DNA from: an uncultured Ruminococcus sp.
Lineage (GTDB): Bacteria; Bacillota; Clostridia; Oscillospirales; Ruminococcaceae
Assembly (NCBI GenBank): GCA_902786965.1
Contig: CADAEJ010000039.1
Location: 1-36,351, forward strand
DNA length: 36,351 nt
Reading direction: 5' to 3'
Shown in pieces: positions 70-23,985 of the stretch. The position numbers were made by a program, and so were the translations under genes. The stretch's first letter is position 1. Every line of letters starts with the position of its first letter. Under the pieces are notes generated by a model. That model saw nothing but the letters and a program-made list of their open reading frames with translations, made no database searches and was not told the origin of the DNA.

Positions 70-101
70 CGGTGTACACACCGCGGCAAACTCTGATTTG
101 C
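70..101. other. Two small hairpins downstream of the GNAT-HAD gene
   Basis: Positions 70-86 hold an inverted repeat, CGCGGTGT and ACACCGCG around two bases. Positions 86-101 hold GCAAA-CTCTGA-TTTGC. Neither is followed by a clear T-run on the minus strand, so a terminator role for the GNAT-HAD gene is only possible. The second hairpin has a relative at 36221-36236. Confidence 0.4.
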
Positions 102-2497: not shown

Positions 2498-2520
2498 AAG
2501 TACGAGGACTTTGTGTACTT
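2498..2520. other. Short inverted repeat upstream of nrdG
   Basis: AAGTAC (2498-2503) and GTACTT (2515-2520) flank 11 bases, between repeat B and the nrdG start. It could form a small hairpin in the nrdDG message. No function is evident. Confidence 0.3.
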
Positions 2521-2541
2521 ATGATGTATTATTGGAGAGTC

Positions 2542-2787
2542 TCTCTTGGGAGTGTTTTTTCTCAAACTCTTTTTTCTGAACTCTACTACTTTTTCGTTAT
2601 TTGGGTCGTAGACCCAAATAACGAAAAAGCAATAAAAGGTTTAGGAAGAGGGGTAAAGCGACCTGCGGTCGCTTGCGAGAATATCCAACGGATATTCTCG
2701 GGGGGATAACGGAGTAACCGTTACCACGGTTACTCCCAAGAGAACGGCTTTGCCGTTCTCGACCTTCGTCCAAAAGGGTTTCCCCCA
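2542..2787 (+). repeat. Copy B of the dispersed hairpin repeat, long form
   Basis: This 246 bp copy lies between nrdD and nrdG. In order it has: the left end TCTCTTGGGAGT; a left-arm hairpin at 2590-2630 whose arms run from CTTTTTCG inward to GGGTC and from GACCC outward to CGAAAAAG; the shared AAAAGGTTTAGGA; then hairpins GCGACC/GGTCGC, GAGAATATCC/GGATATTCTC, GGAGTAACCGT/ACGGTTACTCC and AGAACGGC/GCCGTTCT; and the shared end CCAAAAGGGTTTCCCCCAG. The right end runs through the nrdD stop codon (2730-2732) and supplies the last 19 nrdD codons. The left-end 12-mer recurs as its exact reverse complement, ACTCCCAAGAGA, at 2732-2743. Confidence 0.9.
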
Positions 2788-4931
2788 GCCTGCGTGCGTC
2801 CCTGATTCCAGAACTGCGTGCCGATGTAGCCGCAGGTGCGCCGTGCAACGTTCATCTTTGACTGGTCGCGGTTGTGGCACTTGGGGCATTCCCATACCAG
2901 CTTGCCGTCATCGTTTACTATCTGTATCTCGCCGTCGTAGCCGCACACCTGGCAGTAATCGCTCTTGGTGTTCAGCTCCGCGTACATAATGTTGTCATAG
3001 ATGAATCTTATGACTTTAAGCACCGCAGGGATGTTCCCCTGCATATTCGGTACCTCAACATAGCTTATCGCGCCGCCGGGGGAGAGGTGCTGGAACTGCG
3101 ACTCGAATTTGAGCTTTGTGAACGCATCTATCTTCTCCGTAACGTGAACGTGATAGCTGTTAGTGATGTAGTTCTTGTCCGTGATGCCCTCTATTATGCC
3201 GAAGCGCTTCTGCAAGCATTTTGCGAACTTGTATGTAGTGCTTTCAAGCGGCGTGCCGTATATGGAGAAATCAATGTTCTCCTTTGCCTTCCAGCGCTTG
3301 CACGCATCGTTCATGTACTGCATTATCTCCAGCGCAAAAGGCGTAGCCTCCTTGTCGGTGTGGCTCTTGCCCGTCATGTACTTGACGCACTCGTACAGCC
3401 CCGCGTATCCCAGCGAAATAGTCGAGTATCCGCCGTACAGCAGCTTGTCGATAGTCTCGCCCTTTTTCAGCCTTGCCAGCGCGCCGTATTGCCACAGTAT
3501 CGGCGCAGCGTCCGAAAGCGTGCCCTTGAGCCTGTTGTGGCGCTCCATAAGCGCGCGGTAGCAAAGGTCAAGCCTCTCGTCAAATATCTGCCAGAACTTT
3601 GACATATCCTTGCCCGATGAAAGCGCGATGTCCACCAGATTAAGCGTAACAACGCCCTGATTGAATCTGCCGTAGTATTTCGGCTTGCCGTTCTCGTCAA
3701 CATACGGTGTCAGGAAGCTGCGGCAGCCCATGCAGGTGTAGCAGTGACCCTCGCCGTTCTTGTCCACTTTCAGTTTGAGCATAATCTTTTCGCTGATGTA
3801 ATCAGGTACCATTCTCTTTGCCGTGCATTTTGCAGCCAGCTCGGTCAGATAGTAGTAAGGCGTGCCGGGGTCGATGTTGTCCTCCTCAAGCACATAAATA
3901 AGCTTTGGGAACGCAGGTGTTATCCATACGCCGTCCTCGTTCTTTACACCGAGTATGCGCTGCTTGAGCACCTCCTCGATTATCATCGCAAGGTCAGCCT
4001 TTTCCTGCTCGCTGCGCGCCTCGTTGAGATACATAAATACCGTCACAAAGGGAGCCTGTCCGTTTGTTGTCAGCAGCGTCACTACCTGATACTGTATCGT
4101 CTGAACGCCCCTTGTGATCTCCTCGCGCAAGCGCTTTTCTGTAACCTCGTCTATCCTGTCCTTGTCAGCCTCAACACCAAGCTCCTTGATCTCCTCGATC
4201 AGTTCAGCCCTGATCTTTTCGCGGCTTATCTGTACAAACGGCGCAAGGTGCGTAAGGCTGATGCTCTGTCCGCCGTACTGATTGCTCGCCACCTGCGCGA
4301 TTATCTGCGTTGCGATGTTGCACGCCGTCGAGAAGCTGTGCGGCTTTTCTATAAGCGTGTCGCTGATGACCGTGCCGTTTTGCAGCATATCCTCCAGATT
4401 GACCAGATCGCAGTTGTGCATATGCTGCGCAAAATAATCCGTGTCGTGGAAATGTATTATGCCCTTCTTGTGCGCCTCAACGATGTCAGGCGGCAAAAGC
4501 AGTCTGTTTGTGATGTCACGGCTCACCTCGCCCGCCATGTAGTCACGCTGAACGCTGTTTACAGTCGGGTTCTTGTTAGAGTTTTCCTGCTTGACTTCCT
4601 CGTTGTTGCACTCGATAAGCGTGAGTATCTTGTTGTCGGTCGTGTTCGCCTTTCTCACAAGGTATCTCGTGTAGCGGTACTTGACGTAGCGCCGCGCCAG
4701 GTCGAAAGCGCCCTTGGACATTATCTGGTTCTCGACCATATCCTGTATCTCCTCGACCGATACAGCCCTGCCCATCTTGTTGCACTTGTACTCAACGTAT
4801 TCGGCGATGTCCTTTATCTGCTCGCGCGTCAGTTCGTTCTTGTGATCGGCTTCATTCGCCTTTGATATCGCGTTGACGATCTTTTCGATGTCGAAGATCT
4901 CCTCCGAGCCGTTCCTTTTGATTATCTTCAT
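2730..4931 (-). CDS. nrdD: Anaerobic ribonucleoside-triphosphate reductase, C-terminus altered by a repeat
   Basis: This is the class III ribonucleotide reductase (733 residues), which makes dNTPs from NTPs without oxygen. An ATP-cone allosteric domain covers about residues 1-95 (starting MKIIKRNGSEEIFD), followed by the ten-stranded barrel. The zinc site is CX2C (660, 663) plus CX2C (682, 685). The glycyl radical loop RRTCGY places the radical on Gly701. After QFWNQGRTQ (706-714) the usual family ending, of the type EIKDRV..., is absent. Instead residues 715-733 (ending KPFSWE) are translated from repeat copy B. All recognisable catalytic elements remain, so activity is likely but unproven. 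The start has a GGAGAAGG ribosome binding site, a consensus promoter and NrdR-like boxes. nrdG follows. Confidence 0.95.
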   Translation of the reverse strand: MKIIKRNGSEEIFDIEKIVNAISKANEADHKNELTREQIKDIAEYVEYKCNKMGRAVSVEEIQDMVENQIMSKGAFDLARRYVKYRYTRYLVRKANTTDNKILTLIECNNEEVKQENSNKNPTVNSVQRDYMAGEVSRDITNRLLLPPDIVEAHKKGIIHFHDTDYFAQHMHNCDLVNLEDMLQNGTVISDTLIEKPHSFSTACNIATQIIAQVASNQYGGQSISLTHLAPFVQISREKIRAELIEEIKELGVEADKDRIDEVTEKRLREEITRGVQTIQYQVVTLLTTNGQAPFVTVFMYLNEARSEQEKADLAMIIEEVLKQRILGVKNEDGVWITPAFPKLIYVLEEDNIDPGTPYYYLTELAAKCTAKRMVPDYISEKIMLKLKVDKNGEGHCYTCMGCRSFLTPYVDENGKPKYYGRFNQGVVTLNLVDIALSSGKDMSKFWQIFDERLDLCYRALMERHNRLKGTLSDAAPILWQYGALARLKKGETIDKLLYGGYSTISLGYAGLYECVKYMTGKSHTDKEATPFALEIMQYMNDACKRWKAKENIDFSIYGTPLESTTYKFAKCLQKRFGIIEGITDKNYITNSYHVHVTEKIDAFTKLKFESQFQHLSPGGAISYVEVPNMQGNIPAVLKVIRFIYDNIMYAELNTKSDYCQVCGYDGEIQIVNDDGKLVWECPKCHNRDQSKMNVARRTCGYIGTQFWNQGRTQAGGNPFGRRSRTAKPFSWE

Positions 4932-9502: not shown

Positions 9503-9537
9503 AAAAACTGCTTTGGAGCATTCCAAGGCAGTTTTTG
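9503..9537 (+). terminator. Terminator of the DUF4261-lipoprotein operon
   Basis: An 11 bp stem, ACTGCTTTGGA (9507-9517) with TCCAAGGCAGT (9522-9532), closes a GCAT loop and runs into TTTTT. Confidence 0.9.
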
Positions 9538-9581
9538 TGTTAATGCTATGAGTAATAATATGTTTTGAATGCTGTGGGAAT

Positions 9582-9731
9582 TCTCTTGGGAGTGTTTTTT
9601 CTCAAACTCTCTTTTCTGAACTCTCTAATACTTTTCAGTGACGGGAGCTTGACTCCCGTTGCTGAAAAGTCATTAAAAGGTTTAGGAAGGGGGTCTGGGG
9701 GATAACCCTTCTCCAAAAGGGTTTCCCCCAG
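9582..9731 (+). repeat. Copy C of the dispersed hairpin repeat, short form
   Basis: This 150 bp copy lies between the lipoprotein terminator and the end of argF. It shares with copy B the left end TCTCTTGGGAGTGTTTTTTC, the AAAAGGTTTAGGAAG segment and the right end CCAAAAGGGTTTCCCCCAG. Its left-arm hairpin (about 9632-9671) has a different sequence from copy B but folds the same way: CTTTTCAGTGACGGGAG pairs with CTCCCGTTGCTGAAAAG. The core GGGGG-ATA-AACCCTT/AAGGGTT-T-CCCCC hairpin begins 14 bp past the argF stop and could act on the argF 3' end. Confidence 0.9.
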
Positions 9732-9745
9732 CTATCCAAAACGAA

Positions 9746-10654
9746 CTATTCCCCCATGACCTTGACCATAACCGCCTTTTGCGCGTGCAGACGGTTTTCA
9801 GCCTCCTCAAAGATCTCGTCAGCGTGTGCCTCAAATACCTTCTCGGTTATTTCTTCCTCACGGTGAGCAGGCAGACAGTGCTGCACCATAGCATCGGGCT
9901 TTGCAGCCGCCATTATCTCGTCATTTATCTGGTAGCCCGCAAAAGCGACCTTGCGCTTTTCAGTCTCTGCTTCCTCGCCCATAGATGTCCATACGTCCGT
10001 GAACAGTACATCTGCGTCCTTTGCAGCCTCCAGCGGAACGTCCGTCATCGAGAACATATCGCCATAGCCCTTTGCAAATTCAAGCACCTGCGCGTCAGGC
10101 TGATAGTCCTTGGGGCAGGCGATGCTCACCTGCATACCGACCTTCAAGCCGCCCACGATAAGCGAGTTCGCCATATTGTTGCCGTCACCGATGTAGCACA
10201 TCTTCAAGCCCTCAAAGCGTCCCTTGAACTCGCGTATAGTCATAAGGTCGGCAAGCACCTGGCAGGGGTGGCAGAAATCGGTCAGACCGTTGATGATAGG
10301 GATCGAGCCGTACTGCGCCAGATCCTCTACCTCCTTCTGATCGAATGTGCGTATCATGATCCCGTCAATGTAGCGCGAAAGCACACGTGCCGTGTCCTGT
10401 ACAGGTTCGCCTCTGCCTATCTGCAAGTCACGGTTTGAAAGGAAAAGCGCCTGTCCGCCGAGCTGGTACATACCCGTCTCAAACGAAACTCTCGTTCTTG
10501 TCGATGATTTCTGGAATATCATACCCAGCGTCTTGCCCTTGAGTATCTTGTGTTCGATACCGTTCTTGTTCTCGTATTTGAGCTGGTCAGCAAGGTTGAG
10601 TATGTCCATTATCTCCTCTTTTGAAAGGTCGAGTAATTTCAGTAAATGCTTCAT
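9746..10654 (-). CDS. argF: Ornithine carbamoyltransferase
   Basis: This is a 302-residue enzyme of arginine synthesis that makes citrulline from ornithine and carbamoyl phosphate. The carbamoyl-phosphate motif SSTRTR is at 50-55, HPCQ at 129-132, the ornithine-binding DVWTSMG at 220-226 and HCLPAHR at 259-265. All are intact. The frame extends upstream to 10678, but AAGGAGG (10663-10669), overlapping the argD stop codon, is 8 bases before the ATG at 10654. It is the last gene of the arginine run, coupled to argD. Repeat copy C lies just downstream. Confidence 0.97.
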   Translation of the reverse strand: MKHLLKLLDLSKEEIMDILNLADQLKYENKNGIEHKILKGKTLGMIFQKSSTRTRVSFETGMYQLGGQALFLSNRDLQIGRGEPVQDTARVLSRYIDGIMIRTFDQKEVEDLAQYGSIPIINGLTDFCHPCQVLADLMTIREFKGRFEGLKMCYIGDGNNMANSLIVGGLKVGMQVSIACPKDYQPDAQVLEFAKGYGDMFSMTDVPLEAAKDADVLFTDVWTSMGEEAETEKRKVAFAGYQINDEIMAAAKPDAMVQHCLPAHREEEITEKVFEAHADEIFEEAENRLHAQKAVMVKVMGE

Positions 10655-19462: not shown

Positions 19463-20816
19463 ACTTGATCTGTTCCTTTACCGTTTCAGGCGCAGGACCG
19501 CCCGCGCTCTTTCTCTGCATAACGCAGGTGTCAAGGCTTATCGCATCAAAAACATCACTGTCGAACTTATCGCACAGCTTTTTGTACTCCGAAAGCTCCA
19601 GATTCTCCAGCGTGCAGCCTTTTTCAATGCAGGTGTGTACCAGCGTGCCCGTTATCTTGTACGCATCTCTGAAAGGCATACCCTTCTTAACGAGGTAATC
19701 CGCGCAGTCAGTCGCGTTAATAAAGCCCTTGGCAGCCGCCGCCCTCATATTCTCGGGCAGTACCTTCATCGTCGCGAGCATCGGATCAAACGTCACAAGG
19801 CACAGCTTGACCGTGTCGATAGCGTCAAAAATAGCCTCCTTGTCCTCCTGCATATCCTTGTCATACGCAAGCGAGATACCCTTCATCATCGTCAGCAGCG
19901 TCATAAGATCGCCGTAGACTCTGCCCGTCTTGCCGCGGATAAGCTCCGTAACATCGGGATTTTTCTTTTGCGGCATTATCGACGAGCCCGTAGCGTAAGC
20001 GTCATCGAGCTCTATGAACTTGAACTCCCACGAGCACCAAAGAATTATCTCCTCTGAAAATCTTGAAAGATGCATCATCAGTATCGAAAGCGCCGAGCAA
20101 AGCTCTATGCAGAAATCCCTGTCCGAAACGCCGTCCAGCGAGTTCTGTGTTATCTCCTCAAATCCGAGCAGCTCGCACACCCTCTGCCTGTCGATAGGAT
20201 AAGTCGTCCCCGCGAGCGCACCGCTGCCAAGCGGCATCCTGTCCGTTCTGCCGTAAGCGTCTTTGAGCCTGCCAAGATCTCTCACAAACATATTTGCGTA
20301 AGCCATCAGATGATGTGCAAAGGTTATCGGCTGGGCTCTTTGCAGGTGCGTGTAGCCGGGCATTACCGTCAGCGTGTGCTTTTTTGCGATGTCCGTGACC
20401 GTCTGCGTCAGCTTTTTGAGCAAAGCGATGATCTCTTTTATCTCGTCCTTGAGCGTCATTCTTATATCCAGCGCCACCTGGTCATTCCTCGACCTCGCCG
20501 TGTGCAGACGCTTGCCCGTGTCGCCGAGCCTCTTTGTCAGCTCCGCCTCAACGAACATATGTATGTCCTCGGCATTTGGGTCAAACTCCAGCCTGCCGCC
20601 CTCTATGTCGTCAAGTATCTCCTTCAGACCCTTTACGATAGCCTCACTTTCGCTCTTTTCGATGATACCGCATTCGCCCAGCATCGTCGCGTGCGCGATA
20701 GAGCCCGTGATGTCCTGCCTGTACATTCTCGCGTCGAATTTTATCGACGAGTTGAAGTCATTGACCCTCTCATCGACCTCTTTTGTAAATCTTCCTGCCC
20801 ACATCTTCTGAGCCAT
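19434..20816 (-). CDS. argH: Argininosuccinate lyase
   Basis: This is a 460-residue member of the fumarase/aspartase superfamily that splits argininosuccinate into arginine and fumarate. HTARSRNDQ (105-113) and the signature GSSIMPQKKNPD (277-288), with the catalytic serine in GSS, are intact. TGKRLHTA and GYTHLQRAQP are typical. The frame stays open for about 80 codons upstream through repeat copy D, but AAGGTGG (20824-20830) before the ATG at 20816 and the family start MAQKMWAGRF fix the start. No convincing promoter was seen between the repeat and the gene. It may depend on read-through from argG. Confidence 0.97.
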   Translation of the reverse strand: MAQKMWAGRFTKEVDERVNDFNSSIKFDARMYRQDITGSIAHATMLGECGIIEKSESEAIVKGLKEILDDIEGGRLEFDPNAEDIHMFVEAELTKRLGDTGKRLHTARSRNDQVALDIRMTLKDEIKEIIALLKKLTQTVTDIAKKHTLTVMPGYTHLQRAQPITFAHHLMAYANMFVRDLGRLKDAYGRTDRMPLGSGALAGTTYPIDRQRVCELLGFEEITQNSLDGVSDRDFCIELCSALSILMMHLSRFSEEIILWCSWEFKFIELDDAYATGSSIMPQKKNPDVTELIRGKTGRVYGDLMTLLTMMKGISLAYDKDMQEDKEAIFDAIDTVKLCLVTFDPMLATMKVLPENMRAAAAKGFINATDCADYLVKKGMPFRDAYKITGTLVHTCIEKGCTLENLELSEYKKLCDKFDSDVFDAISLDTCVMQRKSAGGPAPETVKEQIKYVENAIGVF

Positions 20817-20841
20817 TACAAAACCACCTTTGCAAAATAGT

Positions 20842-20972
20842 TGGGGGAAACCCTTTTGGATGAAGGTCGAGAACGGCTTTGCCGTTCTCTTGGGAGTAAC
20901 CGTGGTAACGGTTACTCCGTTATCCCCCCGAGAATATCCTTTGGATATTCTCGCAAGCGACCGCAGGTCGCT
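20842..20972 (-). repeat. Copy D of the dispersed hairpin repeat, right half of the long form, inverted
   Basis: Read on the minus strand, this copy matches copy B from GCGACCTGCGGTCGC through the GAGAATATCC, GGAGTAACCGT and AGAACGGC hairpins to CCAAAAGGGTTTCCCCCAA, with only a few changes. Among these are changes in the loops: ATATCCAACGGATAT in B becomes ATATCCAAAGGATAT, and the TTT of the AGAACGGC hairpin becomes AAA. The left half of the element is missing and replaced by unrelated sequence. It ends about 25 bp before the argH start, so it is transcribed in the argH leader. Confidence 0.88.
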
Positions 20973-20998
20973 CTCTGCAAGAGAGTGCCCAATTATGC

Positions 20999-21046
20999 TG
21001 CAAGAGTGATTATTAAACTGAATGTGACAGAAAATAATCTCTTGCA
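20999..21046. other. Imperfect 14 bp hairpin next to repeat copy D
   Basis: TGCAAGAG-(TG)-ATTATT (20999-21014) pairs with AATAAT-CTCTTGCA (21033-21046), with a two-base bulge and an 18-base loop. A third TGCAAGAG lies at 20977-20984. There is no T-run after it on either strand, so it is not an obvious terminator. It would be transcribed in the argH leader. Confidence 0.5.
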
Positions 21047-23711: not shown

Positions 23712-23985
23712 AATAGTTGAAATGCAGCGATAAGAACAAGTAAGTCACCGCAATGCGTCCAGAGAGCTGTCGTTTTGGTGCAAGACAGTACGCAGACCCT
23801 GACCGAATACATCTTTGAGCAGACTGCCAAGAAAGCGAACAAGGCGTGAACGACCTTGCGCAAAGGCAGTACGGCGGCGTGCCGTTATAACGCAAAAGGC
23901 AGGGGGATACCTCTGCGAACAAAGGTGGTACCGCGATAATTCGCCCTTTGATGAGCAAATGCTTGTCAAAGGGCTTTTTGTTTTA
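23712..23985 (+). ncRNA. Tyrosine-specific T-box leader (riboswitch)
   Basis: This is a classic T-box leader. Stem I begins near GCGATAAGAACAAGTAA and carries the AGAGAG loop (23761-23766) and the GGTG element above a CTGTC/GACAG stem. The specifier is TAC (23808-23810), in the usual context GAA-TAC-ATCTTTGAG, and reads tyrosine. The T-box proper, AAAGGTGGTACCGCG (about 23921-23935), has the bulge TGGT, which pairs with an ACCA tRNA end and matches the A discriminator of tRNA-Tyr. The terminator stem GCCCTTTGA (23943-23951) / TCAAAGGGC (23966-23974), followed by TTTTTG, competes with the antiterminator. Uncharged tRNA-Tyr should turn on the two downstream genes. Confidence 0.95.

Follow-up and report, generated by a model that had tools for sequence, protein, structure and literature searches.

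A modular hairpin repeat family in Ruminococcus, many copies of which carry outer arms that mirror a neighbouring gene end

The window, that is, the whole stretch of DNA analysed here, is an entire contig of 36,351 nt (G000:C39:1-36351) from a 2.61-Mb, 125-contig genome of an uncultured Ruminococcus sp., and carries four copies (A to D) of a hairpin-rich repeat close to genes that include nrdD, an ornithine carbamoyltransferase gene (argF) and an argininosuccinate lyase gene (argH) (Table 1). Comparison of the window copies confirmed that all four sites belong to one repeat family, as an earlier note on this DNA had proposed, and that two blocks of hairpins present in copies B and D are absent from copy C. 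The extents given in that note need correction: the stretch 1-62 is indeed a copy of the repeat, but its shortness reflects truncation of copy A by the contig end and not biology, and many copies of the family are longer than described, with outer inverted arms of about 40 bp and sometimes a further left module. Nor is it quite right that no protein is encoded, as the frame of nrdD enters copy B and ends at 2730. The core of the element is a near palindrome, in which a long central hairpin (P3) lies between two strands able either to pair with one another or to form side hairpins. In RNA folding, copy C gave z = -7.1 and copy B z = -10.6, the blocks of copy B forming side hairpins. The left outer arm of copy C overlaps part of the terminator of the gene to its left. 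The gene beside copy A is a single open frame that matches both GNAT acetyltransferase and HAD hydrolase domains, and hence a fusion.

Table 1. Positions of the repeat copies, their parts and adjoining features in the window
Feature	Position	Strand	Basis or remark
Copy A, truncated at contig start	1-100	+	inner right end up to 63; outer right arm with CGCGGTGTACACACCGCG
Copy A, terminal CAAACTCTGATTTG	87-100		adjoins 3' end of the GNAT + HAD gene (103-1302, -)
Copy B, left outer arm	2511-2541	+	arm-pairing scores
Copy B, core with both blocks	2542-2787	+	sequence and folding
Copy B, central hairpin P3	2584-2634	+	arms 2584-2607 / 2611-2634
Copy B, block 1	~2654-2700		GCGACC and GAGAATATCC hairpins
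Block 1, hairpin H1	2658-2672	+	GCGACC-TGC-GGTCGC
Block 1, hairpin H2	2677-2699	+	GAGAATATCC-AAC-GGATATTCTC
Copy B, block 2	~2711-2762		GGAGTAACCGT and AGAACGGC hairpins
Block 2, hairpin H3	2711-2736	+	GGAGTAACCGT-TACC-ACGGTTACTCC
Block 2, hairpin H4	2740-2760	+	GAGAACGGC-TTT-GCCGTTCTC
nrdD	2730-4931	-	reading frame extends into copy B, the source of a new C-terminal tail
Copy C, left outer arm	9525-9578	+	about 52 aligned nt, 75% identity to the inverted argF 3' end
Copy C, block-free short form	9582-9731	+	folds as a single long rod
Copy C, right outer arm	9730-9779	+	holds the ornithine carbamoyltransferase gene stop codon (9746-9748) and coding end
Copy D, near outer arm	20829-20841	-	directly upstream of the argininosuccinate lyase gene (start, 20814-20816, placed by eye)
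Copy D, both blocks, left half missing	20842-20972	-	sequence comparison
Copy D, far outer arm	20988-21006	-	complementary to the near arm (by eye)

The family is not confined to the four copies of the window. Its right end, CAAAAGGGTTTCCCCCA, was found at 44 sites of the 2.6-Mb genome with at most two mismatches, and its left end at 17 sites with at most three, compared with none for either reversed pattern, which rules out a chance repeat. Many copies in this genome sit at contig ends; the assembly is thus broken by the family, and copy A is truncated accordingly. By blastn, 10 of 61 genomes were matched; these all belong to the 29 of the same genus, with none from the 32 outside it. A covariance model of the left half matched 20 of the 29 at E 0.001, including the isolate Ruminococcus sp. 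FC2018 (G007); per-genome counts from this model are inflated because the near-palindromic element also matches on the opposite strand. Among the other genomes referred to below, G016 is RUG060, and G022, with its 3,685,408-bp contig, is regarded here as R. albus 7. Of 398 genomes sampled evenly across the phylum, three had the linker motif: the source genome and two of another genus with one site each at one mismatch. An exact linker match together with the right hairpin of the family was also seen in G+C-rich surroundings on a contig labelled Armatimonadetes (SKW107; L296, 963-1018), by transfer or by misbinning. Copy C had no match in either the plasmid or the phage collection. Of three patterns searched in IMG/VR, two were without a match and the third led to three stretches on two contigs with a similar architecture; these (L387, L388 and L389) hold a similar arrangement of hairpin, central stem and hairpin, the arms of L387 being GCCTCCGGCGGC and GCCGCCGGAGGC. 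No match of the element to Rfam exceeded the gathering threshold, either in the window or in the copies L001, L027, L006 and L022, the weak matches to L001 and L027 lying far under the thresholds; identity with a known Rfam RNA was rejected, nothing reaching threshold except a T-box leader elsewhere in the window (23718-23951, +; RF00230, 107.5 bits). Among the papers listed by searches of one open library of published literature, none describes an element of this kind in Ruminococcus.

For the comparison of copies, 81 were hand-picked from 204 listed matches (89 + 115) after opposite-strand, duplicate-locus, truncated and weaker ones had been dropped. Of these, 74 have the right end and 73 passed an end-quality cut, and a loose motif split the 73 into 43 with 'TIR' arms and 30 with 'unique' arms, the TIR class including some copies without the TAAATC end (e.g. 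L174, L205, L248-6257). From the common left half to the right end, the intervening stretch measured 33-36 nt in 39 of the 73 copies, 84-87 nt in 10, 126-137 nt in 17 and some other length in seven. Copies without blocks fall at 33-36 nt in 39 of 40 cases (the remaining one at 53), those with H3 and H4 only at 84-87 nt in 10 of 10, and those with all four hairpins at 126-137 nt in 12 of 14, the other two (154 and 155 nt) containing short internal duplications; the remaining nine copies span 100-131 nt. Since lengths are quantised in this way, block boundaries do not vary randomly, as degraded copies of one long element had been expected to show. In these copies block 1 always occurs with at least part of block 2, two apparent cases of H1 and H2 alone having a damaged H3. 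Whole blocks also distinguish orthologous sites: L128 (G004) and L141 (G012) occupy the same place, with flanks 86% identical, and hold both blocks and none, respectively, and the argH site has both blocks in G000 and block 2 only in G004 and G020.

Some copies are units of 297-486 bp with the ends TAAATCAGAATTT...AAATTCTGATTTA and unrelated flanks. The end TAAATCAGAATTTRYCG (at most one mismatch) occurs 30 times in FC2018 and 64 times in G020, compared with none for the reversed control, and 16 units bounded by two inverted ends were found in 20 regions of these two genomes, regions chosen because ends had been found in them; the core is present in all 16. Four FC2018 units are exactly 368 bp long, and the identity of their flanks among one another is 0.21-0.37. 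Target duplication amounts to no more than TA at both ends, and the TA may itself be part of the repeat. Among the 94 ends of the two genomes, inspection by eye revealed no inverted end pair at a transposon-like spacing that could mark an autonomous or transposase-sized unit. The TAAATCAGAATTT-ended units are MITE-like, and the mobility of this class of copies is well supported. The 'non-autonomous mobile element' of the earlier note is thereby supported for these copies; those with unique arms are not TIR-bounded units of defined length. Two cores lie head to head in L351, L353, L354 and L355. Elements joined head to head through AAATGCGGATTT were seen in L006, L229 and L235, and longer units with an extra left module, CCGTCGCATATCGG...GTACAAGAG, joined through AAATCCGCATTT, in L018, L022, L031, L033 and L347-L350.

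The unique-arm copies carry inverted repeats that are specific to their locus. In the 30 copies of this class the left arm paired with its own right arm at a mean score of 33.9, compared with 14.4 for the arms of mismatched copies, and the summed own-arm pairing was reached in none of 20,000 permutations, where, the copies being related, neither this nor the pair tests given below count independent events; in L001, L230-12451 and L231-3796 the arm match is not above chance. The 3' end of the right neighbour faces the element in 51 of the 73 copies, at a median distance of 21 nt. Beside such a facing gene end a stem score of at least 24 was reached by 22 of 25 unique-arm copies (102 of 725 cross pairs), and at least 10 Watson-Crick pairs lay inside the stop codon or coding sequence in 20 of the 25 (83 of 725 cross pairs). 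A looser coding test of three pairs is not specific to the unique class, since 12 of 25 TIR-class copies also pass it. When flanks were aligned over 150 nt, 18 of the 30 unique-arm copies showed an inverted match of 30-72 nt with 65-82% identity, at a score found in 9 of 870 cross pairs, while 12 scored below 30 for a long inverted copy. Fourteen of the 18 long matches reach the called stop codon or go beyond it, two are at gene starts and two (L150, L167) stop short. Examples are the copies beside a gene in G008, G004 and G012 that we take, from a motif, to be argC, and beside nrdD in G020. In many copies, the flank opposite the gene end is a diverged inverted copy of that gene end, stop codon and coding end included; the FC2018/G000 clade, with identities of 65-82%, offered no young, near-perfect example. 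Arms at the same locus often differ between species, each matching itself best: same-locus pairs gave a summed score of 1417 for own stems and 1183 for chimeric ones, own stems being higher in 13 of 17 pairs, equal in two and lower in two, with nrdD making up six of the 17. At argH in RUG060 the gene-side arm is present and its inverted copy absent (by eye).

At nrdD the element has entered the reading frame. The tail derived from copy B, AGGNPFGRRSRTAKPFSWE, replaces the EIRDRVMHL-type end of relatives (read by eye from their DNA), and the match to the NrdD glycyl-radical domain is intact. This locus has lost its right outer arm as well as the last codons of the type found in relatives; the left arm of copy B still matches the nrdD 3' ends of RUG060, G020 and FC2018, at pairing scores of 43, 43 and 37, but poorly the right flank of the copy itself, at 16. 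Where nrdD has the element (G016, G009, G020, G007) the best inverted gene-end score within 400 nt is 28-51, and where it has none (seven genomes tested) 15-20. Several stop codons in this test were called out of frame, so that the gene end examined is displaced by some bases. In G008 other, unrelated-looking inverted repeats occupy the nrdD-nrdG spacer (L176, ~1100-1480) instead of the element.

Five further genomes contain a more symmetric version, in which a side hairpin flanks each side of a longer central hairpin. This R. albus-type set comprises 44 loci (a few listed places were left out and cross-species orthologues kept), with a recognisable core at 43. Arms are up to 111 nt long, and own arms scored at least 30 in 22 of 24 cases, compared with 71 of 552 cross pairs, the latter including orthologues. 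Thirty of the 43 elements lie between convergent genes, against a base rate of 14 convergent gene pairs in 97 for 200 kb of G022 and G002, sampled as ten stretches of 20 kb with the same home-made gene caller, which found only about 107 genes there and so misses genes. At the 30 convergent loci the element lies almost midway between the stops: its distances to the two have a median difference of 4 nt, a value as small being reached in none of 20,000 permutations; they are within 8 nt of each other in 18 of 30 (p 0.00085; Spearman 0.51), and the aligned arm ends lie at most 20 nt from the stop codon on both sides in 17 of 30. Judged by these arm ends and the centring, many of the 30 spacers, although not all, come close to being palindromes from stop to stop.

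Beyond what the earlier note described, whole central hairpins are exchanged between copies, and hairpin variants differ by double changes. Between the 368-bp units L347 and L348, identity is 93-100% in every 30-column window except two central ones (0.60 and 0.57), in which the two units carry different central hairpins; this hairpin swap may be a template-switch event or, alternatively, the result of recombination. In 23 H2 hairpins, located by the outer GAG...CTC so that only the outermost three pairs served as anchors and the inner seven were free, 159 of 161 inner pairs are Watson-Crick despite sequence variation, and one position is G-C in 14 hairpins, A-T in nine and a mixed pair in none. 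H1, H3 and H4 are 97.5-100% Watson-Crick, but their pairings were chosen by best palindrome or by in-stem anchors, which favours pairing. Loops also occur inverted (H4, TTT in 11 and AAA in five; H3, TACC in 24 and GGTA in one), a type of change described for template switching (PMC8604942). Concerted change of both arms without intermediates is thus seen in H2, whereas in the outer arms G.U and A.C are common.

These mispairs are unevenly distributed between the strands. From the gene arm to the other arm of the 18 long matches, C->T changes number 74/149, G->A 45/257, A->G 45/250 and T->C 26/235, and G.U exceeds A.C in 11 of these copies, with the reverse in five. Unique-arm copies have 130 G.U and 72 A.C on the + strand (an excess in 20 copies versus two), cross pairs of all classes 2441 and 2161, and the central hairpin P3 68 and eight over 52 distinct stems. 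This suggests that the relevant fold is that of the + strand, in RNA or in single-stranded DNA. The folding energy of the whole element was lower on the + strand in 64 of 74 copies; against shuffles the z-scores were -10.3 and -10.8 on the two strands, with 14 of 28 randomly drawn copies lower on +, and a strand preference by folding energy was set aside, the strands being equal in this respect. Of the two interpretations in the earlier note, a mobile element is supported for one class of copies, and a structured RNA is, from the wobble bias, possible but unproven.

How such copies might arise can be outlined as follows. A transposase acting in trans would move the element, and its placement just behind stop codons may reflect either a preference for such targets or survival at them. 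After insertion its hairpins would fold during DNA replication and the polymerase could switch template between the arms, through which short hairpins would stay perfect, loops would invert and hairpins would be exchanged. A flank fixed by coding constraint, namely the gene end, would be copied inverted into the free flank until both are coding, the end state between convergent genes being a stop-to-stop palindrome, and selection, acting on the + strand folded as RNA or as single-stranded DNA, would tolerate G.U better than A.C. We infer template switching as a single process that could cover perfect hairpins, loop inversions, swaps, gene-end copies and centring, with selection on structure as a live rival. 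We give an even chance to the reading of the family as a MITE-like, cruciform element in which template switching creates the hairpins, swaps them and maintains their pairing, while one folded strand is probably under selection; the later controls (the core in TIR units, the coding-stem test and the convergent base rate) agree with this reading. More tentatively, and at less than even probability, the element may be a mobile palindrome that converts host DNA, seeding template switching such that gene ends are copied inverted and whole convergent spacers turn into one hairpin, kept by selection on the folded strand.

It seems rather unlikely that the elements are instead 3'-UTR or bidirectional terminator or stability structures whose pairing is kept by ordinary compensatory mutation. 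Their placement directly behind stop codons, the excess of R. albus-type elements between convergent genes, the wobble bias and the ordinary-looking terminators that replace the element at argF in RUG060 and G004 (by eye) would all suit such a function; yet an inverted copy of 30-72 nt of a coding end is hard to build by point mutation and selection, G.U intermediates are almost absent from the small hairpins, most genes to the right have the favoured + strand as their antisense strand, and nothing exceeds an Rfam threshold. Where genomes lack the element, terminator-like sequences seen by eye at the corresponding sites raise the thought that the core was inserted into an older terminator or inverted repeat, the two arms of which are now the outer arms. 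This origin is improbable, given that arms in the FC2018/G000 clade extend into coding sequence and that the second arm is absent at seven element-free nrdD sites, as it is at RUG060 argH (by eye). A duplicated terminator stem as the source of the arms is likewise disfavoured by arms in coding sequence and by the element-free nrdD sites.

A set of several decaying MITE subfamilies with different terminal repeats, requiring no special process at the flanks, would account for the TAAATCAGAATTT units and for the arm motifs that some R. albus-type copies have in common (by eye), as well as for those cross pairs that score at least 30 (71/552). However, stop codons and coding ends of the host lie within the unique arms, which match their own locus much better than other loci, and we accord this explanation little probability. 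Finally, the many G000 copies at contig ends could indicate false palindromes at metagenome contig joins, but the same pattern is found in contigs of the isolate FC2018 (L133, L236, L237) and in the 3,685,408-bp contig of G022, making an assembly artefact very improbable indeed.

The origin and upkeep of long perfect stems is an open question, to which template switching is one proposed answer (PMC8794818). The family constitutes a natural test of how hairpins originate and stay paired: the genomes of cultivable rumen bacteria each offer dozens of parallel cases, many with arms of their own, and orthologous loci with and without the element add to these. If the template-switching reading is true, small mobile elements can reshape the 3' ends of genes and even the tails of proteins, such as that of NrdD in the window.

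The mirroring of gene ends is the new feature of what is otherwise a MITE-like, BOX-like modular repeat, and we know of no report of gene-end mirrored arms for BOX repeats. Judged by analogy, BOX repeats are probably the nearest known relatives in kind: they are described as short, multi-copy, highly structured and modular, and are considered parasitic and non-autonomous, boxB being absent or repeated and boxD of S. suis occurring only together with boxB (PMC3049150). The statement of the earlier note that growth by hairpin units is unlike simple REP or IS-derived repeats was therefore too strong, since pneumococcal BOX is modular as well, by the same account (PMC3049150). Both families have a variable inner module between fixed ends, and the dependence of boxD on boxB recalls that of block 1 on part of block 2; the Ruminococcus modules differ in being complete, exchanged hairpins, and many of the outer arms in consisting of a gene end and its inverted copy. 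With MITEs, Correia and RUP elements among them, the family shares terminal inverted repeats, a lack of coding capacity and unrelated flanks (PMC3049150), but it has locus-specific outer arms, no transposase partner that we could find and at most TA as a possible target duplication. REP/BIME sequences with their RAYT are likewise intergenic palindromes in mosaic composites (PMC2817692), although the Ruminococcus units are much longer. Perfect stems, concerted double changes, loop inversion and inverted copies of nearby sequence are all features of template-switch mutations (PMC8794818, PMC8604942); the cases described in those sources concern RNA genes and yeast coding genes, whereas here they would concern a dispersed bacterial family, with palindromes that take up as much as nearly the whole intergenic region.
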